20,817 nt of DNA from Actinomycetota bacterium (lineage in GTDB: Bacteria; Actinomycetota; Actinomycetes; Streptosporangiales; Streptosporangiaceae), in NCBI GenBank assembly GCA_003168295.1, contig PMST01000046.1, positions 1 through 20,817 on the forward strand. The letters run 5' to 3'. Below the pieces are notes generated by a model. That model worked only from the letters and a program-made list of their open reading frames with translations, was not told the origin of the DNA and ran no database searches. Position 1 is the stretch's first letter. Every line of letters starts with the position of its first letter. The translations under genes and the position numbers were made by a program. Positions 412 through 19,895 of this stretch are shown one piece after another.

Positions 412-1080
412 CTAGCTCGGCGTCGACGGGGTCAGCAGGATGCCACCCAGGGCGATGCGCATGAACTCCTCGGTGATGACGTCCGCCGGATAGCTCCCGT
501 TCGGGTCGTACCACTTGAACGCCCAGTTGTACATGCCAAGGATGCCCAGCGCCGCGAGCTCGGGTGAGACGTCAGCGCGGACCTGCCCGGCGGCCTGTGC
601 TGCGGCGATCTCCGAGGTGACGAACTCCGAATACGAGCGGCGCTCCTTGATGATCTGCGTCCGGCGCGGCTTGCTCAGCCGCTCGAAGTCATTGAGAAAA
701 ACCGTGACGGTGTCCCGATACTCATCAAGCAACCTGGCGTATCCGCGGAGGAATGCCGACAGCCGGGTGATCGGGTCGCCGTCGATGGCGCGGCACTTCT
801 CGGCGTGCTGGCGCGCTACCTGGTGATGCCGATCGATGACGGCATACAGCAGGTCGTCCTTGGACTTGATGTAGTAGTAGACGCTGCCCTTCAGGATGCT
901 GAGAGCGTCGGCGACATCCTGAATGCTCGTGGCGTCAAAGCCGCGCTCGCAGAACAGGGTGGCGGCTGCGGTGATGACCTCGTCGGCGCGACCGCGCGGC
1001 TTCGGTGCGGACGGCCGGAAGGCGGCGCCCTTCGCATCGCCGCGACCGCCGGCAGTCTTGGCGGCGCTGGAAGTCGGCAT
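412..1080 (-). CDS. TetR/AcrR-family transcriptional regulator
   Basis: A 222-residue TetR-type repressor. After a basic, disordered N-terminus of about 30 residues comes the TetR helix-turn-helix (about residues 34-80: AATLFCERGFDATSIQDVADAL, shown here as AATLFCERGF then DVADAL, then KGSVYYYIKSKDDLLYAV), ending in the typical YYYIKSKDDL recognition segment. The rest is a helical ligand-binding domain resembling the KstR2/FadR-like group that senses acyl-CoA pathway intermediates (family knowledge; the ligand here is unknown). The ATG at 1080 has an AAAGG six bases upstream. The gene lies 86 bases downstream of the hotdog gene on the same strand, so it is probably the last gene of the acyl-CoA dehydrogenase operon, and would then be autoregulated through the palindrome at 3248-3261. 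It is the only regulator gene in the window and so the best candidate for the shared 14-bp motif. Confidence 0.93.
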   Translation of the reverse strand: MPTSSAAKTAGGRGDAKGAAFRPSAPKPRGRADEVITAAATLFCERGFDATSIQDVADALSILKGSVYYYIKSKDDLLYAVIDRHHQVARQHAEKCRAIDGDPITRLSAFLRGYARLLDEYRDTVTVFLNDFERLSKPRRTQIIKERRSYSEFVTSEIAAAQAAGQVRADVSPELAALGILGMYNWAFKWYDPNGSYPADVITEEFMRIALGGILLTPSTPS

Positions 1081-1166: not shown

Positions 1167-1580
1167 TCAGATTAACTCCTTAGCCGTCGGCTCCGTGGTG
1201 ACGGAGACCACGCCCGTCACGAGGGAGTCCCCCCGCTGATTCCGGAGCCACGTCATCAGGCTTGTCGCGCCCTCCGACGACGCCATCTCCCCGCCCGCAA
1301 TGACGGTGTCCCCCTCGAACGCGTTGGCGAGGAACCGGAAGGTCGCGGACGACACCATCACGTTCGTGCCGAACTGGGATTGGATTGCGTTCAGGACGTA
1401 AGCAACGTTCAGCCCGCCCTGGTTGATGAGGCGGTCGCCGTAGCCGAGCCGTTGGGTTTCGCTCCGGTCCCAGTGGATCGGGTTCGGGTCGTTGGTGAGC
1501 AGTGAGAAGACCTGCATCGGGCCGGCCTCGACGAGGGTGGTCCACTCCCCGAGATGGTCGAGTGCCGTGCCGTCGCTCAC
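1167..1580 (-). CDS. MaoC-like hotdog dehydratase/enoyl-CoA hydratase, catalytic-type subunit
   Basis: A 137-residue single-hotdog protein. It carries the (R)-hydratase signature with D31-P-N-P-I-H36 in LLTNDPNPIHWD; the Asp and His are the catalytic pair of MaoC-type 2-enoyl-CoA hydratases. I place the start at GTG 1580 because it overlaps the TGA of the preceding gene in a GTGA quartet and has a GAGG-type ribosome site upstream; a longer frame up to 1625 would run inside that gene. The partner hotdog gene immediately upstream lacks the D-x-x-x-x-H motif, so the two probably form a heteromer in which this subunit does the chemistry, as known for actinobacterial ChsH1/ChsH2-type hydratases. 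The inferred role is hydration of the enoyl-CoA made by the dehydrogenase two genes upstream. Confidence 0.85.
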   Translation of the reverse strand: MSDGTALDHLGEWTTLVEAGPMQVFSLLTNDPNPIHWDRSETQRLGYGDRLINQGGLNVAYVLNAIQSQFGTNVMVSSATFRFLANAFEGDTVIAGGEMASSEGATSLMTWLRNQRGDSLVTGVVSVTTEPTAKELI

Positions 1581-2044
1581 GCCGACCGCCTCGGAAGGAT
1601 GAAGGAGCACCCGACCGTGGCGCACACTGGCTCCGCTGAGGTGACTCGCATCTCGAATTGCAGGATGTCGAAGATGCCGAGGGTCGCGCCGCTGCGCCGC
1701 CTGATGTCAGTGATCTTTCCCGTCACGCTGTAGTCGATTCCGGAGTACACCGGCAACGCCTGCCCCAGCGTCAGCTCGCCGAAGACCACCCCGTCATCGA
1801 CCGACGACTCGGCCAGCGCGAGCAGTTCCGCAATTGTGATGCCGACACCGCGCAGGGCGAGCGGAAGCAGCCAGCCCGGGCCGAGGCGATTATCCGGCAA
1901 GTGCGGCGCGCGCATCGCGTCGTTGCCGATCCATGCCTCGTGGGGCTCGAATCGTGCGCCCCCCCCGGGCAGGTCATACCCGACGAGCTTGGCCCGAAGG
2001 TCATCGATGCTCGGCGCGGCGGCGGCCGGCGTTGCGTCGCTCAA
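1577..2044 (-). CDS. Hotdog-fold (FAS1-type dehydratase/MaoC N-terminal-like) partner subunit
   Basis: 155 residues. After an Ala-rich start, a segment with RFEPHEAWIGNDAMRAPHL and a later FGELTLGQALPVYSG and DILQFEMRV pattern resemble the non-catalytic hotdog domains (N-terminal MaoC/FAS1-type dehydratase) that pair with MaoC subunits. I see no D-x-x-x-x-H hydratase motif. The start is TTG 2044, which overlaps the TGA of the acyl-CoA dehydrogenase as TTGA; its stop overlaps the start of the catalytic hotdog gene as GTGA. The three genes are therefore translationally coupled, supporting a dehydrogenase plus heteromeric hydratase module. The fold is well supported; the exact partner role is inferred. 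Confidence 0.75.
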   Translation of the reverse strand: MSDATPAAAAPSIDDLRAKLVGYDLPGGGARFEPHEAWIGNDAMRAPHLPDNRLGPGWLLPLALRGVGITIAELLALAESSVDDGVVFGELTLGQALPVYSGIDYSVTGKITDIRRRSGATLGIFDILQFEMRVTSAEPVCATVGCSFILPRRSA

Positions 2045-3204
2045 TACGCCCTCGGCAGTCCGAGCGACTCGGCGATGGAACTGCGGGCGACCTCGTTGTT
2101 GATCGGCGCGACGCGGAACTGTCGCAGATCTCTCCAGTAGCGCTGCATGTGCGTCTCGGTGGAGAGGCCCATGCCGCCGAGCATCTGGATGCCCAGGTCG
2201 GCTGCCTGGACCGCGTACTCCGACGTTGCGACCTTCGCGATGAGCGCGTCGATCGCGCAGGGGAGCCCGGCTTCCTCACGCGCCGCGACATCGAACGTCA
2301 GCAGCTCCGACTGCTTTCGCCACATCGCGATGTCGGCGATGTAATGCTGTACGGCTTGCCGTGCGCCGATGACGCGCCCGAAGGTCTCGCGCTGCAGGAC
2401 ATAGGCGAGCGCCTCCTCCAATACGCCCTCGAGCATCCCGAGCGCCATTGCCGCGCTGAGGATCCGCTCGTTGTTGAGGGCAGCGACCAGAGCCTTGAAG
2501 CCGTTACCGACCTCGCCGAGGACGAGGTCCGGCTCGATTTCGACCTCGTCGAGGAAGATCTCGCAAGAGCCGATGGCTCTCATCCCGAGCTTCGGAATGT
2601 ACCGGAAGTCGAGCCCCTGGCGGTCCGTGGGGACGAGGAAGAGCGTGGTCTGGGGGTGACGCCGGCCCGGTGCGGGATCGCCGGTCTTGGCCAGGAGCAG
2701 GAGGTAGTCCGCTTCCTTGGCGCCCGTGCACCACGTCTTCTGCCCATTGAGCAACCAGCCGGTCGCGGTCTGGCGAGCCGCCGTTCGCATCGCGCCGAGC
2801 AGGTCCGTACCGCCTGAGGGTTCGGTGACGGCGATGGCGAACCGGCACTGACCCGCCGCCAGCATGCTGAGGTATTGCTTCTTCTGTTCGTGGGTGCCGG
2901 CGAGACCGATGGCCCGCGCGCCGGCGAAGGAGGAGATCGACCAGGCCCACGCCAAGCCGCCGAGGTTGCGGCTCAGCTCTCGAGCCAGGATCGCCGTGTC
3001 GACCGGTGTCCCGCCCGCCCCGCCGTACTCCTCGTCGATGCCCACGGCATGAAAACCGGCCTCGGTCATCTCGTCCCAGAGATCGAACGGGAACTGATAC
3101 TCGCGCTTCTCGCTTTCGAGAGCCCGCTGCTTGGGCCAGGTACTGTCGACCCAATCCCGCACCGAGCGAGCGAACTCCTGGCGCTCCGGGCTGAGTTCAG
3201 CCAC
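2041..3204 (-). CDS. Acyl-CoA dehydrogenase (FadE type)
   Basis: 387 residues, normal length for the family. It oxidises an acyl-CoA to the 2-enoyl-CoA with FAD. Visible landmarks are the N-terminal helical domain (LSPERQEFARSVRDWV), the FAD/substrate loop AVTEPSGGTDLLGAMRT followed by NGQKTWCTG, the beta-domain, and the C-terminal helices with QMLGGMGLSTE and the tail NNEVARSSIAESLGL, which aligns with the usual TxEIxRNIIAERLGL. I did not assign the catalytic glutamate. The start is GTG 3204, not the earlier in-frame TTG at 3264: an AGGAGG lies exactly 7 bases upstream of the GTG. It is the first gene of the minus-strand operon, and its upstream region holds one of the four 14-bp palindromes. 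Substrate unknown. Confidence 0.93.
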   Translation of the reverse strand: MAELSPERQEFARSVRDWVDSTWPKQRALESEKREYQFPFDLWDEMTEAGFHAVGIDEEYGGAGGTPVDTAILARELSRNLGGLAWAWSISSFAGARAIGLAGTHEQKKQYLSMLAAGQCRFAIAVTEPSGGTDLLGAMRTAARQTATGWLLNGQKTWCTGAKEADYLLLLAKTGDPAPGRRHPQTTLFLVPTDRQGLDFRYIPKLGMRAIGSCEIFLDEVEIEPDLVLGEVGNGFKALVAALNNERILSAAMALGMLEGVLEEALAYVLQRETFGRVIGARQAVQHYIADIAMWRKQSELLTFDVAAREEAGLPCAIDALIAKVATSEYAVQAADLGIQMLGGMGLSTETHMQRYWRDLRQFRVAPINNEVARSSIAESLGLPRAY

Positions 3205-3211
3205 GAACCTT

Positions 3212-3217
3212 CCTCCT
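3212..3217 (-). promoter_or_regulatory. Shine-Dalgarno of the acyl-CoA dehydrogenase gene
   Basis: On the minus strand the sequence reads AGGAGG, with a 7-base gap to the GTG at 3204. It is the strongest ribosome site in this part of the window and fixes the start of the dehydrogenase 20 codons inside the longest open frame. Confidence 0.85.
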
Positions 3218-3247
3218 CGGGCCAGCATCCGTCGTCGGCAGCTCTCT

Positions 3248-3261
3248 ACCAAACGATTGAC
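3248..3261. promoter_or_regulatory. Putative TetR-type operator, site A
   Basis: ACCAAACGATTGAC. The left half and core match the motif found at 9302, 11040 and 11317 (about ACCnAACGnTnGGT); the right half ends AC instead of GT. A second half-site, ACCAAATG, follows at 3260. It sits between the divergent dehydrogenase and acyl-CoA ligase operons. A plausible plus-strand promoter, TTGACC (3257-3262), 16 bases, TACTGT (3279-3284), overlaps it, so binding would block the -35 region. It is the weakest of the four sites on sequence alone. Confidence 0.5.
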
Positions 3262-3284
3262 CAAATGCTAGCCTGACGTACTGT
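3257..3284 (+). promoter_or_regulatory. Possible promoter of the acyl-CoA ligase-DUF35-thiolase operon
   Basis: TTGACC and TACTGT are 16 bases apart, upstream of the ligase at 3345. The -35 overlaps operator site A. The match to a housekeeping promoter is moderate. I could not find a convincing minus-strand promoter for the dehydrogenase in the same gap. Confidence 0.35.
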
Positions 3285-3344
3285 TGGCTGACTGGCAAGT
3301 CTTAGTTGGACTCCGTCAGCTCAGTTGCGAGTTGGGAGCACACG

Positions 3345-4892
3345 TTGCGAGCAACGCTGGCTGAAGAGTTCCGCCACGCGCTGGCCACCCACGCCGAGAA
3401 GGTGGCGATCAAGAGCGACAACGCCGAGCTGACCTACGCAGACCTCGACGCGTGGTCCCGTGCCGTCTGTCGCCAACTGCACGACGTCGGGCTGCGCGCC
3501 GGTGACGTGGTCGCCCTCTACCTGCGGAACCGCGCCGAGTTCGTCGTGTGTGACGTGGCGATCTCGCGGCTCGGAGCGGTGAAGCTCCCGATCAACTACA
3601 TGCTGCCGACCGAGACGGTCGCCTACATCCTCGATCGCGCATCGGCGAAGGCCGTCGTCGTCGATGCGGCGATGGCGGGTGGCCTCCCCTCCCCGACTGA
3701 GGCCTCCGGCCTGGCCGTGTTCCAGGTCGCCGACGCTGGCGCGGATCTGCTGCCCCACGCTCGCCGCCTGGCCGACCTGACCGACGCATCGGACGAGGGC
3801 TTCCCCGTCGTGCCGGACCTGCCGCCGACTGCTCCGGCCGCCATCTACTTCACCGGCGGAACCACCGGTCGCCCCAAGGGGGTGTTGCACACGCAGGCGT
3901 CGACGGTCGCCCTGCACTACGCCCAACTGCTCGAGGCGGAGATCCGGCAGGACGACTGCCTGCTGCTGCTGACGCCGCTCGCGCACGCGGCCGGCCTGTT
4001 CGCGCAGTCAGCCGTGATCCGCGGGGCGACGATCGTCCTGCATGACGGCTTCGATGCCGGAACCGCTCTCGACCTGTTCGCGTCGCAGGACATCACGTGG
4101 ACTTTCCTGGTTCCGACGATGATCTACAGGATCCTCGACCTGCCAGCGCCGGAGAACCGGCTCGCCCTGCGCACGATCGTTTACGGCGCGGCGCCGATCG
4201 CGCCGAGTCGCCTCGAGCAGGCGCTCGATCGATTCGGTCGCGTCTTCATCCAGCTGTACGGCCAGACCGAGTGCCCCAACTGGGGCACCCGGCTCGCAAA
4301 GGAGGACCACGACCCGGCCCGTCCCGACCTGCTGCTGACCTGCGGCCAAGCGTCGATCATGGCCGACGTCAAGGTCGTGGACGACGACGGCAAGGACGTC
4401 GCTCTCGACGAGATCGGGGAGATCTGCCTGAAGTCCCCCTACCTGCTGCACTCCTACCTGCTCGACCCGGCCGCGACGGAGCAGAAGTTCCTGGACGGAT
4501 GGATCAGAACGGGCGACATCGGAACGATGGACGCCCGCGGATACCTGACGCTGAAGGACCGCAAGGCCGACATGGTGATCACCGGCGGCATGAACGTTTA
4601 CTGCCGCGAGGTCGAGGACGTCCTCGCCCAGCACCCCGACGTTCGTGCCGTCGCCGTCATCGGCATCCCGCACGAGGACTGGGGAGAGGCCGTCCACGCC
4701 GTCGTCACGGTGCGGTCCGACGCGTTCGACCCCGCCGCCCTGATCGCCTGGTCGCGCGACCGGCTCGCCCGCTACGCGGTCCCCAAGTCGGTCGAAGTGG
4801 TCGAGTCGCTGCCCGAGACGGCGTTCGGCAAGGTGGAAAAGAAGAAGATCCGCGAGCCGCACTGGCAGGGTCGGGATCGGGGCATCGCGTGA
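3345..4892 (+). CDS. Acyl-CoA synthetase (AMP-dependent synthetase/ligase family)
   Basis: 515 residues. It activates a carboxylic acid with ATP to the acyl-AMP and then the acyl-CoA. Visible motifs are the phosphate loop TGGTTGRPKG (about residues 170-179), the adenine/acyl motif QLYGQTE, the WIRTGDIG and LKDRKADMVITGGMNVY hinge motifs, and the C-terminal catalytic lysine region ETAFGKVEKKKI. I chose TTG 3345, which has GGGAG six bases upstream; another in-frame TTG at 3306 has no ribosome site but cannot be excluded (it adds 13 residues). The stop overlaps the next gene's GTG (GTGA), coupling it to a DUF35 protein and a thiolase. The substrate cannot be read from the sequence; a role in activating the transported compound or a late acid intermediate is inferred. 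Confidence 0.92.
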   Translation: MRATLAEEFRHALATHAEKVAIKSDNAELTYADLDAWSRAVCRQLHDVGLRAGDVVALYLRNRAEFVVCDVAISRLGAVKLPINYMLPTETVAYILDRASAKAVVVDAAMAGGLPSPTEASGLAVFQVADAGADLLPHARRLADLTDASDEGFPVVPDLPPTAPAAIYFTGGTTGRPKGVLHTQASTVALHYAQLLEAEIRQDDCLLLLTPLAHAAGLFAQSAVIRGATIVLHDGFDAGTALDLFASQDITWTFLVPTMIYRILDLPAPENRLALRTIVYGAAPIAPSRLEQALDRFGRVFIQLYGQTECPNWGTRLAKEDHDPARPDLLLTCGQASIMADVKVVDDDGKDVALDEIGEICLKSPYLLHSYLLDPAATEQKFLDGWIRTGDIGTMDARGYLTLKDRKADMVITGGMNVYCREVEDVLAQHPDVRAVAVIGIPHEDWGEAVHAVVTVRSDAFDPAALIAWSRDRLARYAVPKSVEVVESLPETAFGKVEKKKIREPHWQGRDRGIA

Positions 4893-5272
4893 GCGGGACC
4901 GCTCCCGCGCTGCCCGATCCGCGCCCACAGGTGACATCGACCCCCGGTGGTCCCCGCGTCCGGGGTTGGCGGTGCGGGCGCTGCCACGGACCAACGGTCC
5001 TTGCTGGGCCGTGGTGCCCGCGCTGCGGAGGCGACGTCCGGGAGGAGCTGTTCGGGCCGGACGGTCAGGTGTGGTCCTCGACGATGGTGCACGTGGCGCT
5101 GCCCGGGCGGACACCGCCCTACGTGCTCGCCTACGTCAACCTCGATGACGGGCCGCGGGTCCTTGCCCATGTGACCGGTGTCAGCCAACGGCTCGCGGTG
5201 GGTGCTCGCGTCAGTCTCCAGCTGCCGGACGAGGGAGGCGACGTGACGGTTGCGGCGGCCGGCCCCGGATGA
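4889..5272 (+). CDS. DUF35 zinc-ribbon/OB-fold protein, thiolase partner
   Basis: 127 residues. An N-terminal rubredoxin-like zinc ribbon has two CxxC knuckles (C29, C32 and C43, C46 in WRCGRCHG and PWCPRCGG), followed by an OB-fold (SSTMVHVALPGR to RVLAHVTG). Proteins of this family bind acyl-CoA and form obligate complexes with thiolase-fold enzymes, for example ChsH2 with Ltp2 and BbsA with BbsB (established knowledge). GTG 4889 overlaps the ligase stop (GTGA), and its own TGA overlaps the thiolase ATG (ATGA), so stoichiometric expression with the downstream thiolase is likely. It is compact, with a poorly conserved first 25 residues rich in Pro and Gly. Partner assignment rests on gene coupling. 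Confidence 0.85.
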   Translation: MSGTAPALPDPRPQVTSTPGGPRVRGWRCGRCHGPTVLAGPWCPRCGGDVREELFGPDGQVWSSTMVHVALPGRTPPYVLAYVNLDDGPRVLAHVTGVSQRLAVGARVSLQLPDEGGDVTVAAAGPG

Positions 5273-6387
5273 GCGCGCACATCTGGGGCGTCGGCACGTC
5301 GATGTTCGGCAAGCAGCCGGAGCGGAGCACCGCCGAGCTGGTGTGGACCGCGGTGACCGAGGCGCTTCGGGACGCCGATGTCGGCTCGGTCGAGGCGGTG
5401 TATGTCGGCAGTTGTTTCGGGGAGCCGGGGATCGCGCAGCGCTCCCTGCTCCGGATGGGCATCGTCGGTCTGCCCATCACCGTCATGGAGAGCGCCTGCG
5501 CCAGCTCCACGCATGCCTTCCACGAGGCGACCACCGCCGTGCAGCTGGGCAGGTACGGATCGGTCCTCGTCGTGGGCGTCGAGCACCTGACCTCACGCTT
5601 CCGCGGCGCCATCCCGGTCGAGCAGCGTGACCCGGAGGGACGAGCCGGACTGGCGTTGCCGGCCCTCTACGCCATGGCGGCGGCGCACTACCAGGACGTC
5701 TACGGCCTGACCGGCCGGCAGCTGGCGGCGGTCTCCGTGAAGAACCACGCCCACGGAGCGCTCAACGAGCGGGCCCAGTACGGGCACCCGGTGACCCTGA
5801 GAGAGGTGCTTGCCTCACCGCCGGTGGCCGACCCGCTGACCCTGTTGCAGTGCTGTGCGATCTCAGACGGCGCCGCTGCGCTGGTCATCGGCAGCGGGCG
5901 CCGAAGCCAGCGTGACGTCAGCGTCCGCGCCAGCGCCTTCGGCACCGGGGGACTGTGGAACGAGGACTCCCCGCATGTGTGGGGCTTCGACCTGGTCCGC
6001 CGCACGGCTCAGCAGGCCTACGACAGCGCCGGTCTGGGCATCGACGACATCGACGTGCTCGAGGTCCACGACGCGTTCACGATCGGCGAGATCGTGACGA
6101 CCGAAGCCCTCGGGATGGCAGCGGTCGGTCACGGATGGGAACTCCTCGAATCGGGCCGCACCCGCCTGGGTGGAGCTGCCCCGGTGAATCCCTCCGGCGG
6201 GCTGCTCTCCCGCGGGCACCCGCTCGGCGCGACCGGCGCAGCGCAGATCGCGGAACTGGTGTGGCAGCTGCGAGGCGACGCAGGACGTCGTCAGACTCCG
6301 TGCCGGACGGCGCTGGTCGAGACCATGGGCGGCGGCGTCGGCGGCATCGACGGCAACGCCTGCGTCGTCGGCATCCTGGCAGCTTGA
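5269..6387 (+). CDS. Thiolase (SCP-x/acetyl-CoA acetyltransferase type), active-site residues intact
   Basis: 372 residues. The thiolase fold is clear from start to end. The nucleophile is C77 in ESACASSTHAF, the HDAF segment (H267) replaces the NEAF of classical thiolases as in SCP-x types, and H317 lies in NPSGGLLSRGHPLGATG. The C-terminal glycine loop GGGVGG precedes ACVVGIL. It therefore should carry out CoA-dependent cleavage of a 3-oxoacyl-CoA. ATG 5269 overlaps the DUF35 stop as ATGA, so it probably works as a complex with that protein. The stop codon lies within the left arm of the hairpin at 6384-6427. It contrasts with the two cysteine-less thiolase-like genes across the hairpin. 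Confidence 0.92.
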   Translation: MSAHIWGVGTSMFGKQPERSTAELVWTAVTEALRDADVGSVEAVYVGSCFGEPGIAQRSLLRMGIVGLPITVMESACASSTHAFHEATTAVQLGRYGSVLVVGVEHLTSRFRGAIPVEQRDPEGRAGLALPALYAMAAAHYQDVYGLTGRQLAAVSVKNHAHGALNERAQYGHPVTLREVLASPPVADPLTLLQCCAISDGAAALVIGSGRRSQRDVSVRASAFGTGGLWNEDSPHVWGFDLVRRTAQQAYDSAGLGIDDIDVLEVHDAFTIGEIVTTEALGMAAVGHGWELLESGRTRLGGAAPVNPSGGLLSRGHPLGATGAAQIAELVWQLRGDAGRRQTPCRTALVETMGGGVGGIDGNACVVGILAA

Positions 6388-6427
6388 CCGAGCCCTCCGC
6401 ACGGCTGGCGGCGGAGGGCTCGGTCAA
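6384..6427. terminator. Bidirectional intrinsic terminator between convergent operons
   Basis: A perfect 17-bp inverted repeat (arms 6384-6400 and 6411-6427) with a 10-base loop, starting TTGACCGAG and ending CTCGGTCAA. It lies between the thiolase stop (6387) and the end of the convergent DUF35 gene (6446). There is no T-run, as is usual for actinobacterial terminators. The symmetry means it can act for both transcripts. Confidence 0.88.
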
Positions 6428-6445
6428 GGGCATTCCCGCGACCTC

Positions 6446-6943
6446 CTACTCCGCGTCGAAGGCCGCGATGTCCGTGATGGCACCCGAGCGTTCCGCTGCC
6501 CAGCGGGCGCGGACTCGCAGGCCATCGACGAGCCGGGCGCGGGCCGCTTCGGGATTGCCCAGGTCGACGCCGCCGATGAAGTGCATGAACAGCGAATCCG
6601 TGCCGTCGACCTCGATGGCCCCCACCGCGTAGGGAACCTCGGGCCCGCCGTCAAACCCCTGATAGACGATGGTCGCCGCGCGGAGGGTCCCGACAGGTTC
6701 GAGTTGCCGCCACTCCTCGATGTGCTCGTAGCATGCCTCGCAGTAGTCCTGGGCCGGCACGTAGGTACGGCTGCAGTGCTGGCAGACCGACCCCCACAGC
6801 TCCTGGTTCTGCAACCCCTTCATGAACCGACTCCAGGTCCGGCCGAGCTTGACCTGGTAGTCGATCTCCCAATGGACGTGTTGGACGATCCGCCCGGTCG
6901 CATCAGCGGCGAAGCCGGTGGTGTCGCTGTCGGTGGTAGTCAC
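6446..6943 (-). CDS. DUF35 zinc-ribbon/OB-fold protein, partner of the thiolase-like pair
   Basis: 165 residues. A helical N-terminus with HWEIDYQVKLGRTWSRFMKGL leads into a zinc ribbon with C54-Q-H-C57 and C68-E-A-C71, then the OB-fold (VGTLRAATIVYQGF to SLFMHFIGGVD). The N-terminal helix plus ribbon plus OB-fold is the full-length form of the family, longer than the first DUF35 protein in this window. The start is GTG 6943, overlapping the stop of the preceding thiolase-like gene as GTGA; a longer frame to 7117 would lie inside that gene. The known role of the family is to supply part of the acyl-CoA site to a thiolase-fold partner. Here the partner would be one or both of the cysteine-less proteins upstream. 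Confidence 0.88.
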   Translation of the reverse strand: MTTTDSDTTGFAADATGRIVQHVHWEIDYQVKLGRTWSRFMKGLQNQELWGSVCQHCSRTYVPAQDYCEACYEHIEEWRQLEPVGTLRAATIVYQGFDGGPEVPYAVGAIEVDGTDSLFMHFIGGVDLGNPEAARARLVDGLRVRARWAAERSGAITDIAAFDAE

Positions 6944-8109
6944 GAGCCGACCCTTTCCATGACGGTGGCGGTATGGAACTGGAAGAACGTGCCGCCGGTG
7001 CTGTGGGCCAGCCCGCGCTGCGCGCCGGCCACCTGCTGGGCCGGGGACTGCCCCATGAGCTGGAGCGCGATGTGAGCGACCGGAGCGATCTGACCGGCGA
7101 GCCCGGGGTTGGTGCACTGGGTGCCGCCGGAGACGTTCACCGGGATGTCGCCGTCAACCTGAGTGGCGCCGGCGTGGAACAGCGCCGGCGCGGTGCCGTA
7201 GCCGCAGAGCTGGAAGGCCTCCATGAGCATGTACTCCATCGGCGCGTACGGCGTAAACAGCTCGCAGACGTCGAAGTCGCGGCGGGGCTCTCGGATGCCG
7301 GCCTGCTCGTAGACGCGCCGGGCGAGGATCTCCACCACCTCGAAGGTGGAGAAGTCACGGCGCTTCCCGCCGAGGTAGCCATCGCTGATCGATCCGTGAC
7401 CGCTGATGCGGACCAGCGGGTTCGGACTGTCGTCCTGCACCGCCTCCTCGGCGGAGATCACCATCGCGATCGCCCCTGAGGAGACCGGGCAGACCATGCC
7501 CAGCCGCAGCGGAGTCGAGATCAGGCGCTCCGCCAGCGCGTCCGGCAGCGCGCTGGTGACGTGCGCGAACGGATTGTGGTCGGCGTTCCGGCGGTTCTTC
7601 TCCGACAGTGCCAGCAGGTCGGCGTCGGACACCTTGTAGCGCTGCTGGTACGCGGCGGGGAAGAAGGCGCCCATGTGGACCGCTCCCATGCCCAGCGGCT
7701 GCTCCATGACCATTGGCGAGTTGGTGTTGATCACGGCCTGCAGGTCCACGGGGCCGTCGAACGTGTTCGGCGCAACACACAGCACCCGCTGGGCGAACCC
7801 GGCCTGGACCAGCGTCGCTGCCTGATTCGGCAGCTGACCACCGGAGGTACCGCCGGTACTGATCGGCACCACGGCGGTCAGTGGCGGCAGCCCCAAGGAC
7901 GGCGCGATCGTCTTGGTCGCCACGCACGACGCCTCGAAGCCGGCGATGTCGCCGATGATCACGGCGTCGATGGCATCCCGTGGGCAACCGGCGTGATCCA
8001 GCGCGATGTCCACCGCCTGCCGGCAGAGTTCGTTTTTCGACAGCGGCTGGCGCCGCGGCGATGTCGCCGGCGTGATCCCCACGCCGCTGACCACCGCATG
8101 ACTCTTCAC
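6940..8109 (-). CDS. Thiolase-like protein lacking the nucleophilic cysteine (Ltp/SCP2-like)
   Basis: 389 residues with thiolase-superfamily architecture (KSHAVVSGVGITP start, EKNRRNADHNPFAHV, NVSGG loop). Where thiolases have the nucleophilic Cys, this protein reads PISTGGTSGGQL (about residues 82-93), with no cysteine. The HDAF box is replaced by CELFTPYAPMEY, and the GHP histidine loop reads NVSGGTQCTNPGLAGQ, without His. Ordinary Claisen chemistry is thus unlikely. SCP2-like retro-aldolases such as Ltp2 also lack thiolase cysteines and need a DUF35 partner (established knowledge); a similar retro-aldol role is an inference here. GTG 8109 overlaps the upstream stop (GTGA) and the gene's own stop overlaps the DUF35 start (GTGA). 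It could also be a structural subunit. Confidence 0.85.
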   Translation of the reverse strand: MKSHAVVSGVGITPATSPRRQPLSKNELCRQAVDIALDHAGCPRDAIDAVIIGDIAGFEASCVATKTIAPSLGLPPLTAVVPISTGGTSGGQLPNQAATLVQAGFAQRVLCVAPNTFDGPVDLQAVINTNSPMVMEQPLGMGAVHMGAFFPAAYQQRYKVSDADLLALSEKNRRNADHNPFAHVTSALPDALAERLISTPLRLGMVCPVSSGAIAMVISAEEAVQDDSPNPLVRISGHGSISDGYLGGKRRDFSTFEVVEILARRVYEQAGIREPRRDFDVCELFTPYAPMEYMLMEAFQLCGYGTAPALFHAGATQVDGDIPVNVSGGTQCTNPGLAGQIAPVAHIALQLMGQSPAQQVAGAQRGLAHSTGGTFFQFHTATVMERVGS

Positions 8110-9266
8110 GACGCCTCCAGAACGAAGACGTTGGCAGTGCCGCTGACCAGGCCCATCAGGTCGTCGACACCGTGAACGACCAGTGGGCCGCCCGTAGCGC
8201 CGTCGGAGACGCGCTCGACGGCGTCGACGAGCCGGAGCAGGCCGGAGGCGATCCCGGGATGGTTGGCGCGGACTCCCCCCGACACGTTCACTGCTTGATC
8301 CGGCAGGTGAGCGAGCTGCAGCGCCCCCTGCAGTTCGTCGCTGAGCGCCGGTGACAAGTCGGTCATCTCCAGTCCGGCCACGGTCGAGGGATCGGTCAGG
8401 CCGGCACGCTCGTACGCCTTTGACGCGGCCCGGGCCGCCGCCGCTGCCGGCTCGTCTAGCCAGGTCCGGTTCGCCGGCGGCTGGCCGGTCGCGGATCCCC
8501 ACCCGGTCAGCCGCGCCAGCGGTCGTGGGCACCGCCGGGCCGCGACCCCGTACGCGAGGACCACCGCGCCCGCTCCCGCCGACTCCGCGGGCAGCATCAG
8601 TTGGGGAAGCGGCGCCACGGCCATCGGGGACGACCGCACGTCGTCGGCGGTGACCGGTGAGCGCCGGCCCCGTCCCGAGACCGCTCCCCGGTTAATGTCC
8701 GTCGTGGTGCGGTCCACCAGTCGGTCCCATGTCACAGCGCCGGAGTCGAGCCGTCGGGCGGCGTGCATGCCGAGCGTCACGGCTGCCCTCATCCCCACTG
8801 GCCGGTCCATGTGCGAGTCGAAGGTGTAGCTGCTCACGTGCTCCCGGAGTTGTCGCACCGCGGGCTCTGCCGTCGAGCCTGCCTCGGGCACGTTGATCGC
8901 GGTCACGATGGCCATGTCGGCGTGACCGCTGATGAGGTGGGCCATGGCGAGCACCACCGACGAGCTGGCGTCTCCTTCGACCCGGAGTTCGTCGTTGAGG
9001 TAGCCCGCGGCAGCAGGGGCCGTCAGGGCGTTCGAGATCGACCGTCCGTCGTAGAGATCGAGCGAGCTGGTGACGGAGAAGCCGATCTGGTGTCGACGCA
9101 CGCCGGCATCGCGCAGGGCCTGCGAGCACGCGTCGAAGATGAGCTCATCGAGTTGGCGGTCGTCGTGGTCGTCGACGTCGATCCACGCCCGCCCGACCAC
9201 ATAGACGTCCTCGCGCGGCTGTTGGGACAGCGGTGGCTCCGAGAGCGCGGCCACAGGTGGCGTCAC
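8106..9266 (-). CDS. Second thiolase-like protein, cysteine replaced
   Basis: 386 residues, divergent thiolase fold. The segment aligning with the thiolase nucleophile loop reads VEGDASSSVVLAMAH, placing D99 where Cys is expected. The late loop NVSGGVRANHPGIASG keeps a His (H336), which the neighbouring thiolase-like protein lacks. The two proteins may therefore be complementary halves of one heteromeric enzyme. The start is GTG 9266 with a GAGG/GGGG-rich ribosome region upstream. It is the first gene of a three-gene unit (this gene, the next thiolase-like gene, DUF35), all joined by GTGA overlaps. A promoter with a 14-bp palindrome lies at 9301-9329. Similarity to plain acetyltransferases is weak, and the reaction cannot be told from the sequence. 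Confidence 0.78.
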   Translation of the reverse strand: MTPPVAALSEPPLSQQPREDVYVVGRAWIDVDDHDDRQLDELIFDACSQALRDAGVRRHQIGFSVTSSLDLYDGRSISNALTAPAAAGYLNDELRVEGDASSSVVLAMAHLISGHADMAIVTAINVPEAGSTAEPAVRQLREHVSSYTFDSHMDRPVGMRAAVTLGMHAARRLDSGAVTWDRLVDRTTTDINRGAVSGRGRRSPVTADDVRSSPMAVAPLPQLMLPAESAGAGAVVLAYGVAARRCPRPLARLTGWGSATGQPPANRTWLDEPAAAAARAASKAYERAGLTDPSTVAGLEMTDLSPALSDELQGALQLAHLPDQAVNVSGGVRANHPGIASGLLRLVDAVERVSDGATGGPLVVHGVDDLMGLVSGTANVFVLEAS

Positions 9267-9300
9267 GATGCCTCATCCCCTTCCGATCCGTTTTGGCGCC

Positions 9301-9329
9301 AACCTAACGTTTGGTCGATGAAGAATCAA
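9301..9329 (-). promoter_or_regulatory. Promoter of the thiolase-like/DUF35 operon
   Basis: On the minus strand TTGATT (9329-9324) and TAGGTT (9306-9301) are separated by exactly 17 bases. Operator site B (9302-9315) covers the -10 and half the spacer, a classical repressor position. The start site would fall near 9295, about 30 bases before the GTG at 9266. Confidence 0.55.
9302..9315. promoter_or_regulatory. Putative TetR-type operator, site B
   Basis: ACCTAACGTTTGGT, a near-perfect 14-bp palindrome (only the fourth position and its partner break symmetry). It shares the motif of 3248, 11040 and 11317 and lies in the 88-base gap in front of the thiolase-like operon, over its predicted promoter. 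Confidence 0.72.
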
Positions 9330-9354
9330 CGCCCAGATTAGTGCGTGACAGAGC

Positions 9355-10962
9355 TCACTGCCGGTCGGTCCGGGATCGAGGATGGGTCAATGCGCGGCGA
9401 CGCTCGACGTCCCCGTCCGCGGTGGCGGTGTCACGCGGGATCACGACGAAGTCGTCGGACAACGCCGGGAAGCGCGTCCGCAGGATCTTCTTGTCCACCT
9501 TGAGCAGGCCGTTCCTGGGCAGCGCCTCGCCGAACCGGGCGATGTACCGGGGCCACTTGTACCGGGCCAGCTCGGCCGAGAGCCGCTCGCCGAGGTCGCC
9601 GAGATCCCAGCTGCCGTCGGTGTCGCCCACGACCAGCAGCCCGACCTCGCCCCACTTCTCGTCGGGTACTCCGATCACGGCGCTGTCGCTCAGCCCGGCG
9701 AGGCCGCTGACGATGCGCTCGATCTCCGCGGGATACACGTTGAACCCGCCCGAGATGATCATGTCCTTCTTGCGGTCGCGGATCGTGAGGTATCCGTCCT
9801 GGTCGAGTTCGCCGACGTCACCGGTGTGCAACCAGCCGCCTCTGAGGGCCTGCGCGGTCTGCTCCGGCGACTTCCAGTAGCCAGCCATGACGCCGGGCCC
9901 GCGGACCAGGATCTCCCCGGGGGTGTCGGCCGGGCAGTCGACGTCGTCGTCGACCACGCGCACCTCGGTGTACATGATCGGCCGGCCGACGGTGCCCGGG
10001 TGCTCAAGCGCCTGCGACGAAGGCAGCTTGGCCACGTAGATGCTCGACTCGGTCAGGCCGTATCCCTGGGTGATCCGCACGCCCTTGCTCAGATAGGTCT
10101 CGATGAGCGCCTTGCTGATGACCGCGCCCCCGGTCGTCACATCGAGCAGGCTCGTCAGGTCGCAGGACGCGAAGTCCGGGTGGCGGGCCATCCGCTCGAG
10201 GAAGATCGTCGTCACCGCGGTCAGGCTGATCCGCTCCCGTTCGATCATCTTCAGGCATGCGCCCGGATCGAAGACGGTCTGGATGTAGATCCGGCAACCG
10301 TTGAACAGCCCGAACTGGGTGACCGCCGCGCCCAGGCCGCCGGAGGCGTGGAACGGCTGCGGGGCCAGGACCCGGTCGCGCCAGGTGTAGCCGACGGCAG
10401 CCGCGTTGGCGAGCGCCACCTCCCGCAGCGACGCGTGGGTGAGCATCGCTCCCTTGGGATAGCCCGTCGTCCCGGAGGTGTAGCAGATGACCAGCGTGTC
10501 GTCGGCCTCGGAGCCGGGTGGTGGCACGGTCCCGGGCTTCCGCAGGCTGGCGAGGGTCGGGTATTTCTCACTGCCGCGGCTGTAGATGCCGACCTGCGGA
10601 TGCTGGGCGAGGACCTCGCCCAGCAGCGGCTCGGAGTCGGGTTCGGTGAGGACGATCTTGCTGTCGGAATGCTCCACTTGGTAGGCGACTTCACCCGGCG
10701 TGAGGCGGGTGCTGAACGGAGCCGTGATGGCGCCCAGCTTGATCAGCGCGACATAGGCCTCGATGTACTCAAGGCCGTTCTCCATGAGGATGCCGACCAC
10801 GTCGCCAGCCCTGATCCCGAGGTCGTACATCCCGACCGCGAGTTCCTCGCTGCGGGCGTCCAGCTCACCCCAGGTCAGGGAGTCCTCATCCTTCAAGAAC
10901 GCGAGGTCGGCGGGGCGCTCTCGCGCCCAGTACCGCACGGCCTCGTTCGCGGTGATCGCCAT
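9355..10962 (-). CDS. Acyl-CoA synthetase (AMP-dependent synthetase/ligase family), second copy
   Basis: 535 residues, a full-length class I adenylate-forming ligase. Motifs: phosphate loop TSGTTGYPKGAML (starting near residue 161), GYGLTESS, WLHTGDVGELDQDGYLTIRDRKKDMIISGGFNVYP, and the catalytic lysine region ALPRNGLLKVDKKIL. It differs clearly from the ligase at 3345 (different loop, hinge and C-terminus), so it is not a recent duplicate and may activate a different acid. The last 25 residues are basic and outside the family core. ATG 10962 has GGGAG five bases upstream. It is transcribed towards the thiolase-like genes, but an 88-base gap with its own promoter and operator separates them. 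Operator site C lies 78-91 bases upstream. Confidence 0.92.
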   Translation of the reverse strand: MAITANEAVRYWARERPADLAFLKDEDSLTWGELDARSEELAVGMYDLGIRAGDVVGILMENGLEYIEAYVALIKLGAITAPFSTRLTPGEVAYQVEHSDSKIVLTEPDSEPLLGEVLAQHPQVGIYSRGSEKYPTLASLRKPGTVPPPGSEADDTLVICYTSGTTGYPKGAMLTHASLREVALANAAAVGYTWRDRVLAPQPFHASGGLGAAVTQFGLFNGCRIYIQTVFDPGACLKMIERERISLTAVTTIFLERMARHPDFASCDLTSLLDVTTGGAVISKALIETYLSKGVRITQGYGLTESSIYVAKLPSSQALEHPGTVGRPIMYTEVRVVDDDVDCPADTPGEILVRGPGVMAGYWKSPEQTAQALRGGWLHTGDVGELDQDGYLTIRDRKKDMIISGGFNVYPAEIERIVSGLAGLSDSAVIGVPDEKWGEVGLLVVGDTDGSWDLGDLGERLSAELARYKWPRYIARFGEALPRNGLLKVDKKILRTRFPALSDDFVVIPRDTATADGDVERRRALTHPRSRTDRQ

Positions 10963-11039
10963 TACCTCTCCCGACTTTCGGTGCAGAGCGCGGCTGAGGG
11001 GTCGTCGGTTCGCATCCGCCCTCCGTGGGCCCGCATTTG

Positions 11040-11053
11040 ACCAAACGTTCGGT
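11040..11053. promoter_or_regulatory. Putative TetR-type operator, site C
   Basis: ACCAAACGTTCGGT, 14 bp, palindromic apart from one pair. It is upstream of the second acyl-CoA ligase. A candidate minus-strand promoter lies next to it: TTGACA (11092-11087), 18 bases, CAGCAT (11068-11063). That would put the operator at about +3 to +16 of the transcript. Confidence 0.7.
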
Positions 11054-11062
11054 TACTCCTTG

Positions 11063-11092
11063 ATGCTGGCGCAGTGACGAGCGTGGTGTCAA
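11063..11092 (-). promoter_or_regulatory. Possible promoter of the second acyl-CoA ligase
   Basis: On the minus strand a perfect -35, TTGACA, is followed after 18 bases by CAGCAT, a poor -10. The position just upstream of operator site C supports it. Confidence 0.35.
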
Positions 11093-11272
11093 TGACCTGG
11101 ACGGGCCATGCCGACCGAGTCTCCGGCCGCGGGAGAGGGCCGCTGTACGGGCTGCCGCAGGGTGGTGGGGCGCTGGCGCCGATCGATCGCCGCAGACCGT
11201 CGCTTTGATGATCTTCGGTGGGGCGCCCCCGGACCGCTTCCGCGACATCCGTCGCGCCAGCCGTGGCGGGTC
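11093..11272. other. Non-coding part of the divergent control region
   Basis: The gap between the ligase (10962) and the permease (11505) is 542 bases. Its outer parts hold the promoters and operators listed separately. In this central part I see only a short palindrome, GGGGCGCCCC (11220-11229), and short open frames with no recognisable protein, codon pattern or ribosome site. I assign no gene or RNA here. Confidence 0.4.
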
Positions 11273-11301
11273 TTGACACCGGCATCGCCGTTCCGTAAGT
11301 T
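11273..11301 (+). promoter_or_regulatory. Promoter of the ABC transporter operon
   Basis: A perfect -35 TTGACA (11273-11278), a 17-base spacer and TAAGTT (11296-11301) form the best housekeeping-type promoter in the window. Transcription would start near 11308, immediately before operator site D, leaving a leader of about 195 bases before the permease GTG. Confidence 0.65.
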
Positions 11302-11316
11302 ACATCTGTTCGTCCT

Positions 11317-11330
11317 CCCAAACGGTTGGT
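11317..11330. promoter_or_regulatory. Putative TetR-type operator, site D
   Basis: CCCAAACGGTTGGT, matching the motif of the other three sites except at the first base and the ninth. It would span about +9 to +22 of the transcript from the promoter at 11273-11301, a position suited to blocking initiation or early elongation. It is the link between the transport operon and the degradation operons. Confidence 0.65.
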
Positions 11331-11504: not shown

Positions 11505-12545
11505 GTGCCTGTTGAGTCGCGGGAACACCACCGAGTCGGGAAGCGCCTCCCACTTCCGGTTCGGGGGCGGTTTCGCTCGATCGACTCCGCGCTGCTGCCC
11601 GTCCTCGCCACTGTCCTCCTTAGCGTCCTCGGCGCGATCTTCGTCAGCGGATTCCTGACCGCCGGCAACCTCAAGGTGCTCTTCCAGGACGCCGCCCCGG
11701 TGACCGTCATCGCGGTCGGCTCGGCGGTCGTGATCCTGACGAAGAACATCGACCTGTCGCTCGCCGCGATCGTTCCGGTCTCTGCGGAGATGGTGATCCG
11801 GCTGGAGACCGGATCGGGCTTCGGCGAGGGGACCGCGGTGCTGACCGTGTTCCTGATCGCGCTCGGCGTCGCCCTGCTGAACGGCGCCATCGTCGCCTAC
11901 GTCGGGATCTCGTCGCTGTTCGCCACCCTCGCCACCTGGCAGCTCATCTCCGGGCTTTTCGGAGTGCTCTTCCTGGGCGCGGACCAGTACGTCGTCCCGA
12001 AGAACTCTCGCTTCATCAGCGATCTCGGCACCGGTGACGTGCTCGGGGTCTCGGTGCCGATCGCGGTGGCGGCACTGGTCGTCATCGTCGTCTGGCTGGG
12101 CCTCAAGTACACCGCGTTCGGCCGGCTGTTCGTCATCACCGGCGACAACCCGCAGGCCGCTCGGCTGAACGGCATCCCCGTGCGGCGCGTGGTGTTCGCC
12201 GCCTTCTGCGTCTCGGCGCTATTGGGTGCGCTCTCGGCACTGATGTCGTTGGGGCAGGCGGGGGTCTACAGCAGCTCGGCCGGCGACGGCGGCATCAACA
12301 CGTTGTTCATCGCGATCACAGCAGTCGTTCTCGGCGGGGTGTCGCTGAGCGGCGGACAGGGCTCGATCTTCGGCGTCCTGGGCGGCGTCGCGTTCATCTC
12401 CGTCCTGGAAAGCATCATGACCCTGCTCAACTTCAGCGAGATCACGGCCGGATTGGTCCAGGGCATCGTGTTGCTCGCGGCGCTGGCCATCGACCGTCAG
12501 CTACATCCTCGGGACGAGGAGACGGCGAGGCTGGATGAATTGTAA
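11505..12545 (+). CDS. ABC transporter permease, sugar type (RbsC-like)
   Basis: 346 residues, predominantly hydrophobic with about nine to ten membrane segments, beginning near residue 27 (LLPVLATVLLSVLGAIFVSGF). The family signatures are present: NIDLSLAAIVPVSAEMV in an early segment, and the cytoplasmic ATPase-coupling loop YTAFGRLFVITGDNPQAARLNGI, followed by the late GGVSLSGGQGSIFGVLGG. It forms half of the translocation channel in the inner membrane. The GTG start at 11505 has GAGAGA upstream; the leader is about 195 bases. It precedes the binding-protein gene by 58 bases. RbsC-type permeases move sugars, but related systems carry autoinducers, nucleosides and other small polar molecules, so the substrate is open. 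Confidence 0.93.
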   Translation: MPVESREHHRVGKRLPLPVRGRFRSIDSALLPVLATVLLSVLGAIFVSGFLTAGNLKVLFQDAAPVTVIAVGSAVVILTKNIDLSLAAIVPVSAEMVIRLETGSGFGEGTAVLTVFLIALGVALLNGAIVAYVGISSLFATLATWQLISGLFGVLFLGADQYVVPKNSRFISDLGTGDVLGVSVPIAVAALVVIVVWLGLKYTAFGRLFVITGDNPQAARLNGIPVRRVVFAAFCVSALLGALSALMSLGQAGVYSSSAGDGGINTLFIAITAVVLGGVSLSGGQGSIFGVLGGVAFISVLESIMTLLNFSEITAGLVQGIVLLAALAIDRQLHPRDEETARLDEL

Positions 12546-12603
12546 ACGGTAGGTGTCATCAACGAGCCGAACTTGCTGATCCTCACAGATCTAGGAGAAC
12601 CAC

Positions 12604-13653
12604 ATGCCCAGCAAGAAAGTAGTCTCCCTCCTGCTGATCTCGCTCGCGCTGTTCCTAGCGGGCTGCTCGAGCGGCGGTAGCGGCAATAGCACCAGCAGCG
12701 GCGGCAGCTCGGGGGAAACTGGTGTCCCGTCGGTGACCACCGAGCAGGTCGCGCACGGCGACGTCCTCGACGCCATGAAGGGCAAGCGCATCCTCTTCGT
12801 GCCCGTCGCCTTGGGTGCGCCGAGCACCGACCGGTGGAACACCGAATTCAAGTCAATCTTCGGGCAGCTGGGCGCCGACTACGAGGTCGCGAACCCGAAC
12901 TTCAACACCAACAACATGATTTCGATCATTAACTCCCACATCGCTGCCCACAACGTGGACATGCTGATCCTTCAGCCGCCGGACGTCAGCGTGCTCGACA
13001 CCCAGATCGAAGCGGCGAAGAAGGCCGGCATCTACGTCATCGTGCTCTCCGAGTTCAGCGACGCGACCGGTGACGCCTACGTGGGTCCGAACCTGCAGCA
13101 GATGGCCCAGGCGCTCGGCCAGAACATGGTCACGCGCTGCAAGGCGGAGGGCAAGAACCAGGTGGCGATCATCGACGGCTACGGGACGGATGCGTTCTCG
13201 ATCCTCACCAACGCCGGCTGGATCCCGGTGTTCAAGGCCGCCGGGCTGAAGATCGTCTCCGAGCAGGAGGGCCAGTACGACCCGACGCTGTCGAACAAGA
13301 TTGCTGCGACCGTCCTGCAGCAGCACCCTGACCTGTGCGCGTTCGCGGTCAACCTGGATCTCGGTGCGATCGGCGTGGGCAACGCCATCCAGCAGGCCGG
13401 GGACAAGGGCAAGGTCGGGGTCTACACGATCGACGACGGGTCCTTCCTGTGCCCTGCTCTGCAGTCGGGCCTCATCACCGAGACCGCCGACTTCAACCTG
13501 CCGGGGATCGGCGTCGCGGTCGGCGCCGTCGCCCAGAACCTGTTCGAGCTCGGCAAGCCCGCCGGCTCGACCCGGACGGTGGCGTTCTCGCCGTACACGA
13601 TCGTGAACGGCTCCGACGTGCACAACACGCCTGGGACCTGTTACACGGGCTGA
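12604..13653 (+). CDS. Substrate-binding lipoprotein of the ABC transporter (Peripla_BP_4/RbsB-like)
   Basis: 349 residues. The N-terminus is a lipoprotein signal (MPSKK, hydrophobic core, lipobox L18-A-G-C21), followed by a Ser/Gly-rich linker that tethers the domain to the outer membrane face. The two-lobe sugar-binding fold is visible: GKRILFVPVALG start, DMLILQPPDVSVLDTQIEAAKKAGIYVIVL in lobe one, and VGVYTIDDGSFLCPALQSGLI near the hinge. Four cysteines in the mature domain (in TRCKAEG, DLCAFAV, FLCPAL and GTCYTG) could form disulfides. AGGAG lies 6 bases before the ATG. A strong hairpin follows the gene, which would favour excess binding protein over the downstream subunits. The ligand cannot be identified. 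Confidence 0.94.
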   Translation: MPSKKVVSLLLISLALFLAGCSSGGSGNSTSSGGSSGETGVPSVTTEQVAHGDVLDAMKGKRILFVPVALGAPSTDRWNTEFKSIFGQLGADYEVANPNFNTNNMISIINSHIAAHNVDMLILQPPDVSVLDTQIEAAKKAGIYVIVLSEFSDATGDAYVGPNLQQMAQALGQNMVTRCKAEGKNQVAIIDGYGTDAFSILTNAGWIPVFKAAGLKIVSEQEGQYDPTLSNKIAATVLQQHPDLCAFAVNLDLGAIGVGNAIQQAGDKGKVGVYTIDDGSFLCPALQSGLITETADFNLPGIGVAVGAVAQNLFELGKPAGSTRTVAFSPYTIVNGSDVHNTPGTCYTG

Positions 13654-13675
13654 TGACAGGTCAACCTTGCGAATA

Positions 13676-13689
13676 GTGCGATCTCGCAC
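13676..13689. repeat. Short inverted repeat before the terminator
   Basis: GTGCGA, two bases, TCGCAC: a perfect 6-bp inverted repeat just after the binding-protein stop and immediately upstream of the larger hairpin. It could be an RNA processing or stabilising hairpin, or a binding site; it does not match the 14-bp operator motif. Confidence 0.5.
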
Positions 13690-13691
13690 CG

Positions 13692-13741
13692 CCCGGCGGC
13701 AGCCCGTGAAGGTCAGAACGGCCTTCGGGCTCGCCGCCGGG
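13692..13741 (+). terminator. Intrinsic terminator or attenuating hairpin after the binding-protein gene
   Basis: Arms 13692-13706 (CCCGGCGGCAGCCCG) and 13726-13741 pair over 14-15 positions with one bulged base, and the loop contains a further AAGG/CCTT pairing. There is no T-run. The next gene, the fused permease, starts 80 bases later with no obvious promoter, so partial read-through seems likely. Confidence 0.75.
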
Positions 13742-13821
13742 AGGCGAGGACGCCGTGACAGCGGTGCCGTCGGCGGCAGCCGGGTCGGCACCATCGTGAC
13801 CACCGCAGCGCACGAGGCAGC

Positions 13822-18308: not shown

Positions 18309-18360
18309 CGGCCGGCGGGATGACGGGCCGTAGTGCACGACGTGTCGAGAGGAACGAGTG

Positions 18361-19872: not shown

Positions 19873-19895
19873 GCGACGGTCACGAAGGGTATGGC

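Follow-up and report, generated by a model that had tools for sequence, protein, structure and literature searches.

Genes and palindromic sites of the window

The stretch of DNA analysed here (the window, 20,817 nucleotides; contig PMST01000046.1 of the Actinomycetota bacterium assembly GCA_003168295.1) carries four copies of a 14-base-pair (14-bp) palindrome, termed sites A to D, in front of genes for uptake and degradation, together with one gene for a TetR-family regulator. We evaluated the palindrome, whose consensus in relatives is ACCAAACGTTTGGT, as the candidate operator of this TetR. The sites and genes are arranged as follows.

3248–3261, no strand: candidate operator site A, ACCAAACGATTGAC, between the divergent dehydrogenase operon (minus strand) and ligase 1 operon (plus strand)
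9302–9315, no strand: candidate operator site B, ACCTAACGTTTGGT, 35 bases upstream of the thiolase-like operon (minus strand), which starts at 9266
11040–11053, no strand: candidate operator site C, ACCAAACGTTCGGT, 77 bases upstream of ligase 2 (minus strand), which starts at 10962
11317–11330, no strand: candidate operator site D, CCCAAACGGTTGGT, 174 bases upstream of the first ATP-binding cassette (ABC) transporter gene (plus strand) at 11505
412–1080, minus strand: TetR-family regulator (TetR_N and TetR_C_24), at the end of the gene run behind site A
1167–2044, minus strand: two overlapping genes, a MaoC-like hydratase (1167–1625) and a partner without a Pfam match (1577–2044)
2041–3204, minus strand: acyl-CoA (CoA, coenzyme A) dehydrogenase, its start set at GTG 3204 with a perfect AGGAGG upstream
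3306–6387, plus strand: ligase 1 (AMP-binding; its start may be 3345), an OB-fold ChsH2_C protein and a thiolase-like protein
6446–9266, minus strand: an OB-fold/zinc-ribbon protein and two thiolase-like proteins
9355–10962, minus strand: ligase 2 (AMP-binding)
11505–20666, plus strand: transporter operon, with a permease, a binding protein (rhamnose/ribose/allose type) and a permease fused to a strictosidine-synthase/SMP-30-like domain
within 11505–20666, plus strand: remaining genes of the transporter operon, namely a second SMP-30-like protein, a SnoaL-like protein, two short-chain dehydrogenases and an ATPase
11273–11301, plus strand: possible promoter of the transporter operon (TTGACA, 17 bases, TAAGTT), picked by eye and ending 15 bases before site D

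Sites were defined as 14-mers, and in the organism itself the scan covered the window. All four sequences lie where the original prediction had placed them, and with gene starts chosen by ribosome-binding site all four are non-coding, as it had also stated; the region 412–20666 is 94.0% coding, the other 6% amounting to 1,212 bases. Self-complementary pairs number 4, 6, 6 and 5 of 7 in sites A, B, C and D, which agree with the consensus of the relatives at 11, 13, 13 and 12 of 14 positions, respectively. The distance from site A to the GTG at 3204, the likely start of the dehydrogenase, is 43 bases. With a matrix built from the four sites, which score 17.7–22.1, the next position in the window reaches 10.2, upholding the claim that coding DNA holds no equally good copy. 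Each site also outscores every non-site position when scored with a matrix of the other three, the margin being smallest for site A (12.7 vs 9.7). A promoter scan listed nothing at any of the four sites, and the candidate picked by eye near site D, whose second hexamer matches at 3 of 6 positions, was likewise unlisted.

The TetR carries both of its domains above the curated cut-off (PF00440, 47.7 bits vs 24; PF17932, 97.7 bits vs 26.4), and no DNA-binding domain was found in any other protein among the 19 of the window that were scanned. This agrees with the original statement that it is the only regulator in the window, and its predicted place in the operon behind site A is borne out by its position at the end of that run.

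Conservation beside related TetR genes

Judged from the window alone, the significance of the four sites is not firm. When all 16,384 14-bp palindromes are enumerated there, GC-rich words prevail and the motif fails correction for that number; significance therefore depends on relatives. Close relatives of the TetR are few, the nearest in the protein database being 61% identical and the next 42% and below (18 proteins including itself). Protein cluster P0001 is listed on 56 contigs, of which the longest has 102,346 bases. Scanning GTDB contigs with a four-sequence alignment yielded 25 loci, 14 of which were combined with three further ones (L096–L098) into a set of 17. Those three belong to 20 stretches taken from the 37 matches of a TetR search in 396 Actinomycetota genomes, and were added after motifs had been seen near loci L063 and L064. 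The loci left out of the set, L002 and L015 (Pseudomonadota) and L017–L025 (weak or short matches, expectation value (E) 8e-12 or worse), served as controls.

The 17 loci (240,375 bases) contain 22 sites that match ACCAAACGTTTGGT at 12 or more of 14 positions, compared with zero in ten random sequences of the same composition, and at least one such site occurs in 13 of the 17; the motif is thus conserved beside related TetR genes. Seventeen of the 22 sites lie outside genes according to a rough gene caller, which errs in that it places site B of the window inside a spurious frame. The aligned part of the TetR is preceded in L003, at 8 bases, by a perfect palindrome and in L064, at 38 bases, by a 13/14 site. 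In 73% of the half-sites in relatives a G stands two positions after the last T; sites A, B and D have this flanking G on one or both sides, and site C lacks it. With a matrix made from the 22 sites of the relatives, the four sites of the window rank 1–4 of 20,804 positions (scores 23.3, 22.4, 17.6 and 16.4; the fifth position scores 6.3). Four of 300 shuffled sequences held at least one match as good as the weakest site, and none held four. This ranking is partly circular, since the sites in relatives were picked by their likeness to a consensus derived from the window, and all 16,384 palindromes were therefore enumerated across the 17 loci. In this unbiased count ACCAAACGTTTGGT comes first at 13 or more of 14 (10 seen, 0.06 expected) and second at 12 or more (22 seen, 0.19 expected). 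The ranks hold against the composition-matched expectation; by raw counts GC-rich words outrank the motif.

The association extends to whole genomes. Eleven genomes with related loci were searched with the pattern ACCAAACGNTTGGT, allowing one mismatch, and for TetR homologues at E <= 1e-10. Of 39 near-exact copies, 18 have a TetR homologue no more than 10 kb away, where 0.76 would be expected, so that the motif clusters near TetR homologues. By genome the copies near a TetR number 1 of 9 (G001), 0 of 3 (G002), 1 of 2 (G003), 3 of 3 (G004), 3 of 4 (G005), 2 of 2 (G006), 4 of 6 (G007), 0 of 1 (G008), 3 of 4 (G009), 1 of 2 (G010) and 0 of 3 (G011). G001 has one of the nearest TetRs (43%) and nine sites on seven contigs, six of which carry homologues of window genes, among them ligases, MaoC genes and a dehydrogenase 53% identical to that of the window; its regulon may thus be dispersed. 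The exact pattern occurs six times in five of the 396 genomes, the reversed control three times in three. Three of the six copies are near TetRs of the window type. Two of these are in G004, at a distance of about 2 kb, and the third, in G258, precedes the aligned part of the TetR by 38 bases; G004, around which the 396-genome sample is centred, was itself found through its TetR. One contig of G006 (C35, 49.7 kb) holds six TetR homologues and two motif copies.

We also examined which genes adjoin the sites in relatives, scanning 20 proteins. Among the products of the first genes after sites are AMP-binding ligases (L004, L013, L096, L098), thiolases (L004, L005, L097), flavin oxidases (L096–L098), SnoaL proteins (L009, L012), a luciferase-like oxidase (L009), a hydantoinase (L006), an amidohydrolase (L004) and, at a distance of 439 bases, a biotin carboxylase (L011). 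The sites in front of a P450 (L006) and a binding protein (L012) are weaker, at 11/14. The picture suggested by these neighbours is that TetRs of the window clade act as local repressors of degradation clusters with varied chemistry.

Plasmids of Rhodococcus rhodochrous (L092) and R. opacus (L093) provide a natural control. Both carry the orthologous enzyme cluster as one gene run, divergent from a TetR, with identities to the window of 63/61%, 74/73% and 71/71% for the thiolase-like proteins and 59/59% for the ligase, and with both OB-fold and both MaoC-type genes. The TetR of this cluster has no match to the window TetR at E <= 1e-5, and in 93,300 bases of three Rhodococcus loci (the third, L094, holds part of the cluster) no site reaches 12/14 and one reaches 11/14. 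These plasmid clusters were rejected as direct relatives, having a different TetR and no motif, and were kept as a control. The same enzymes under another TetR without the motif argue that the motif goes with the regulator and is not a property of the enzyme genes. No site of at least 12/14 was found in 157,566 bases of the weakly matching control loci, and no motif lies near the TetR of R. pseudokoreensis (38% identical). The original idea that the 14-bp palindrome fits a TetR-family operator thus gains comparative support: the motif is conserved beside, and clustered near, related TetR genes and is absent where another TetR is present. The Rhodococcus megaplasmid cluster (L092, L093) also includes an F420-type oxidoreductase.

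Known TetR operators and a sister clade

The TetR was modelled with a mean predicted local distance difference test (pLDDT) score of 86.3, and a structure search returned KstR2 as the best match, followed by AibR with isovaleryl-CoA, a Thermobifida TetR and PfmR. KstR2 of Mycobacterium tuberculosis (PDB 4w97, 4w1u) ranks first with a template modelling (TM) score of 0.88 by target and 23–24% identity, but the likeness is not specific, being common to a wider group. The PfmR structure (PDB 3vpr) gives TM scores of 0.88–0.90 by target in three of the chains listed, at 28–29% identity. AibR (PDB 5k7f, 5k7h, 5k7z) is 26–27% identical and was solved with isovaleryl-CoA and with operator DNA, which places acyl-CoA binding within the fold group; the comparison with it concerns the fold. 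The NCBIfam equivalog scores of the window TetR are far below cut-off for both KstR (25 vs 280 bits) and FasR (29.8 vs 330).

The published operators compared below are taken from extracts of the papers cited. The KstR2 operator is given as AnCAAGnnCTTGnT (PMC3068626), and each of the four sites matches it at 7 of 10 defined positions. As in the window, KstR2 controls a local regulon through a 14-bp palindrome at divergent promoters, so that operator length and layout are the same. The G and C at positions 6 and 9 of its operator are found in none of the four window sites, a change of one consensus base per half-site. The original prediction recognised no KstR2 motif here, and the sequence is indeed not that of KstR2, though its layout is the same.

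Operators close to that of the window come from two Thermus thermophilus regulators. PaaR (TTHA0973) is a TetR repressor of CoA-thioester degradation with a 14-bp consensus selected in vitro, AACnAACGTTnGTT; it binds ACCTAACGTTCGCT with a dissociation constant of 3.9 nM (PMC6651687). The bound sequence is identical to sites B and C at 12 of 14 positions, and sites A–D match the consensus at 8, 10, 10 and 8 of 12 defined positions. The window sites differ at position 2, where each of them carries C in place of A. No phenylacetate (paa) genes were found among the 19 window proteins, and PaaR is likened here by operator, not by protein sequence. For PfmR (TTHB023) an earlier consensus is TACCGACCGNTNGGTN (PMC7022988); sites A–D match its core, ACCGACCGNTNGGT, at 8, 10, 11 and 10 of 12 positions, the differences being a preference for C over A at position 6 of the core and another regulon. 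The original prediction, which compared the sequence with KstR, KstR2 and FasR motifs, did not name PaaR or PfmR, to whose published operators it is close. From these comparisons the operator appears to be of a known type and identical to none of the KstR2, PaaR and PfmR operators. We found no report of it in the open-licence literature, searched as CCAAACGTTTGG or AAACGTTTGG with TetR or as ACCAAACGTTTGGT; subscription papers were mostly outside the scope of this search.

The 396-genome search also revealed 15 TetRs with helix type SMQHLGDALGLQRGSLYAHIGSK whose own genes are preceded by an 18-bp form, ACCAAACG-NN-CGTTTGkT, at a distance of 26–84 bases from the aligned part. These matches reach 12–15 of 16 positions, with two of the 15 rows (L067 and L074) at only 12. 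In a tree of 45 proteins (12 short, 15 long and 18 unlabelled) a single branch with support 98/95 separates the two operator types; the labels come from the same motif scans, and the branch leading to the window TetR is long. Nor is the separation absolute, as the window-type loci also hold eight long-type matches at 14 or more of 16. At one locus that otherwise has 14-bp sites, a long-spaced site formed by two overlapping 14-mers, ACCAAACGACCGATTGGT (L004:1285–1302), lies upstream of an ABC-transporter homologue (2547–3998). Both spacings have already been met in one protein, PaaR, whose earlier genomic consensus, CNAACGNNCGTTNG, corresponds to the long-spaced form and whose genomic site, AACAAACGACCGTT, to the left part of that form; the extracted text treats them as two versions of one consensus (PMC6651687). 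Our tentative proposal, to which we give rather less than even confidence, is that two sister clades of catabolic TetRs recognise one half-site, ACCAAACG, each with its own fixed spacing, the difference having arisen by one change on the tree, the half-sites overlapping within 14 bp in the window clade and spanning 18 bp before the own gene in the other. The 4-bp shift may mean that two overlapping dimers bind in place of one. If true, the two spacings would explain why the two published consensus sites of PaaR differ in exactly that way.

Proposed regulation and its alternatives

The sites, their conservation, their association with the TetR clade of the window and the TetR fold model come directly from computation. 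The most reasonable explanation, which we consider very probable, is that ACCAAACGTTTGGT is the operator of the TetR encoded at 412–1080, that a dimer bound at four sites represses the uptake and degradation units, and that a CoA-thioester releases it. Comparison with its relatives suggests that the window TetR itself binds the predicted operator, probably as a repressor rather than an activator. In this scheme the dimer would occupy sites A–D and block the promoters there. Site A would control the dehydrogenase, hydratase and TetR operon, hence providing autoregulation, as well as the divergent ligase 1 operon; site B would control the thiolase-like operon, site C ligase 2 and site D the ABC importer operon. 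A CoA-thioester made by the ligases or arising at a later step of the pathway would enter the ligand pocket and free the dimer from DNA, so that import and degradation open together in a simple feed-forward switch. The effector of KstR2 is an acyl-CoA and that of PaaR is reportedly phenylacetyl-CoA; by analogy with AibR and PaaR, the effector here is probably an acyl-CoA.

Several observations weigh against this explanation. Site A, the weakest of the four, is a weak palindrome with 4 of 7 complementary pairs and by itself would not convince, and no site lies directly before the start of the TetR gene. Four of the 17 loci (L001, L007, L008 and L016) lack a site of 12/14 or better, including L001 with one of the nearest TetRs, and 21 of the 39 near-exact copies have no homologue within 10 kb, among them all those in G002, G008 and G011. 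Three of the six exact copies (in G073, G188 and G304) are not near a TetR of the window type: the TetR match of G188 lies on a different contig, and at E <= 1e-25 there is no match in G073 or G304. To these can be added the circularity noted above and the statistics of the window itself, in which a loose pattern (up to 3 mismatches) has 12 matches vs 9.1 expected, a count reached by 23 of 100 shuffles, and in which the motif has p ~4e-5 among the 16,384 palindromes with two CG-rich words ranking higher. These window statistics are what speaks for chance, that is, four unrelated AT-richer palindromes in intergenic DNA. All comparative tests and the negative-control loci stand against chance, which in our view the enrichment around relatives already refutes, and we give it practically no credence.

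The absence of a site directly before the TetR gene could instead mean that a paralogous TetR elsewhere in the genome reads the operator while the TetR at 412–1080 binds something else, and relatives often have several such TetRs (each of the 11 genomes contains between 2 and 11 homologues at E <= 1e-10). We think this unlikely: the window TetR is the sole DNA-binding protein among the 19 and lies in the run behind site A, and the motif accompanies this TetR clade in unrelated neighbourhoods but is missing next to the different TetR of the Rhodococcus clusters. Both operator and fold are near those of PaaR and KstR2, as they would be if the window TetR were an orthologue of either and the cluster degraded phenylacetate or steroid rings. 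That, too, seems quite improbable given identities of only 23–28% to KstR2 and PfmR in structural alignments, the failure of KstR2 positions 6 and 9 in all four sites, the lack of paa genes among the window proteins and the low KstR and FasR model scores.

The enzymes of the proposed regulon (acyl-CoA dehydrogenase, MaoC pair, and ChsH2-type OB-fold proteins with thiolase-like partners) are similar to the dehydrogenase-hydratase-aldolase set that reportedly removes propionyl units from steroid side chains (PMC12502768). The partner at 1577–2044 corresponds, by position and 39–40% identity, to genes beside MaoC in Rhodococcus, and has no PDB relative at E <= 0.1. The thiolase-like protein at 8106–9266 (minus strand) has no Pfam match at E <= 0.001, and its NCBIfam lipid-transfer/thiolase matches are below cut-off; it is 48–63% conserved in many actinobacterial hypothetical proteins, a family mostly unnamed. 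In the transporter operon, the gene at 13822–16020 (plus strand) encodes the ABC permease with a C-terminal strictosidine-synthase/SMP-30-like beta-propeller, and the second SMP-30-like gene follows at 15998–17113. Despite the steroid-like enzymes the importer is of the rhamnose/ribose/allose type, so that enzymes and importer together point to no single substrate.

The regulon proposed here adds a well-supported example to a kind of control that is already known and does not represent a new one. The operator sequence offers target prediction for a clade of uncharacterised TetRs beside CoA-thioester degradation genes, mostly in Actinomycetota. In the window it ties a sugar-type importer to enzymes like those for steroid side chains, and the substrate can be sought as a compound whose CoA-thioester frees the regulator. 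With the two half-site spacings, it would become possible to test how TetR sequence relates to operator geometry.

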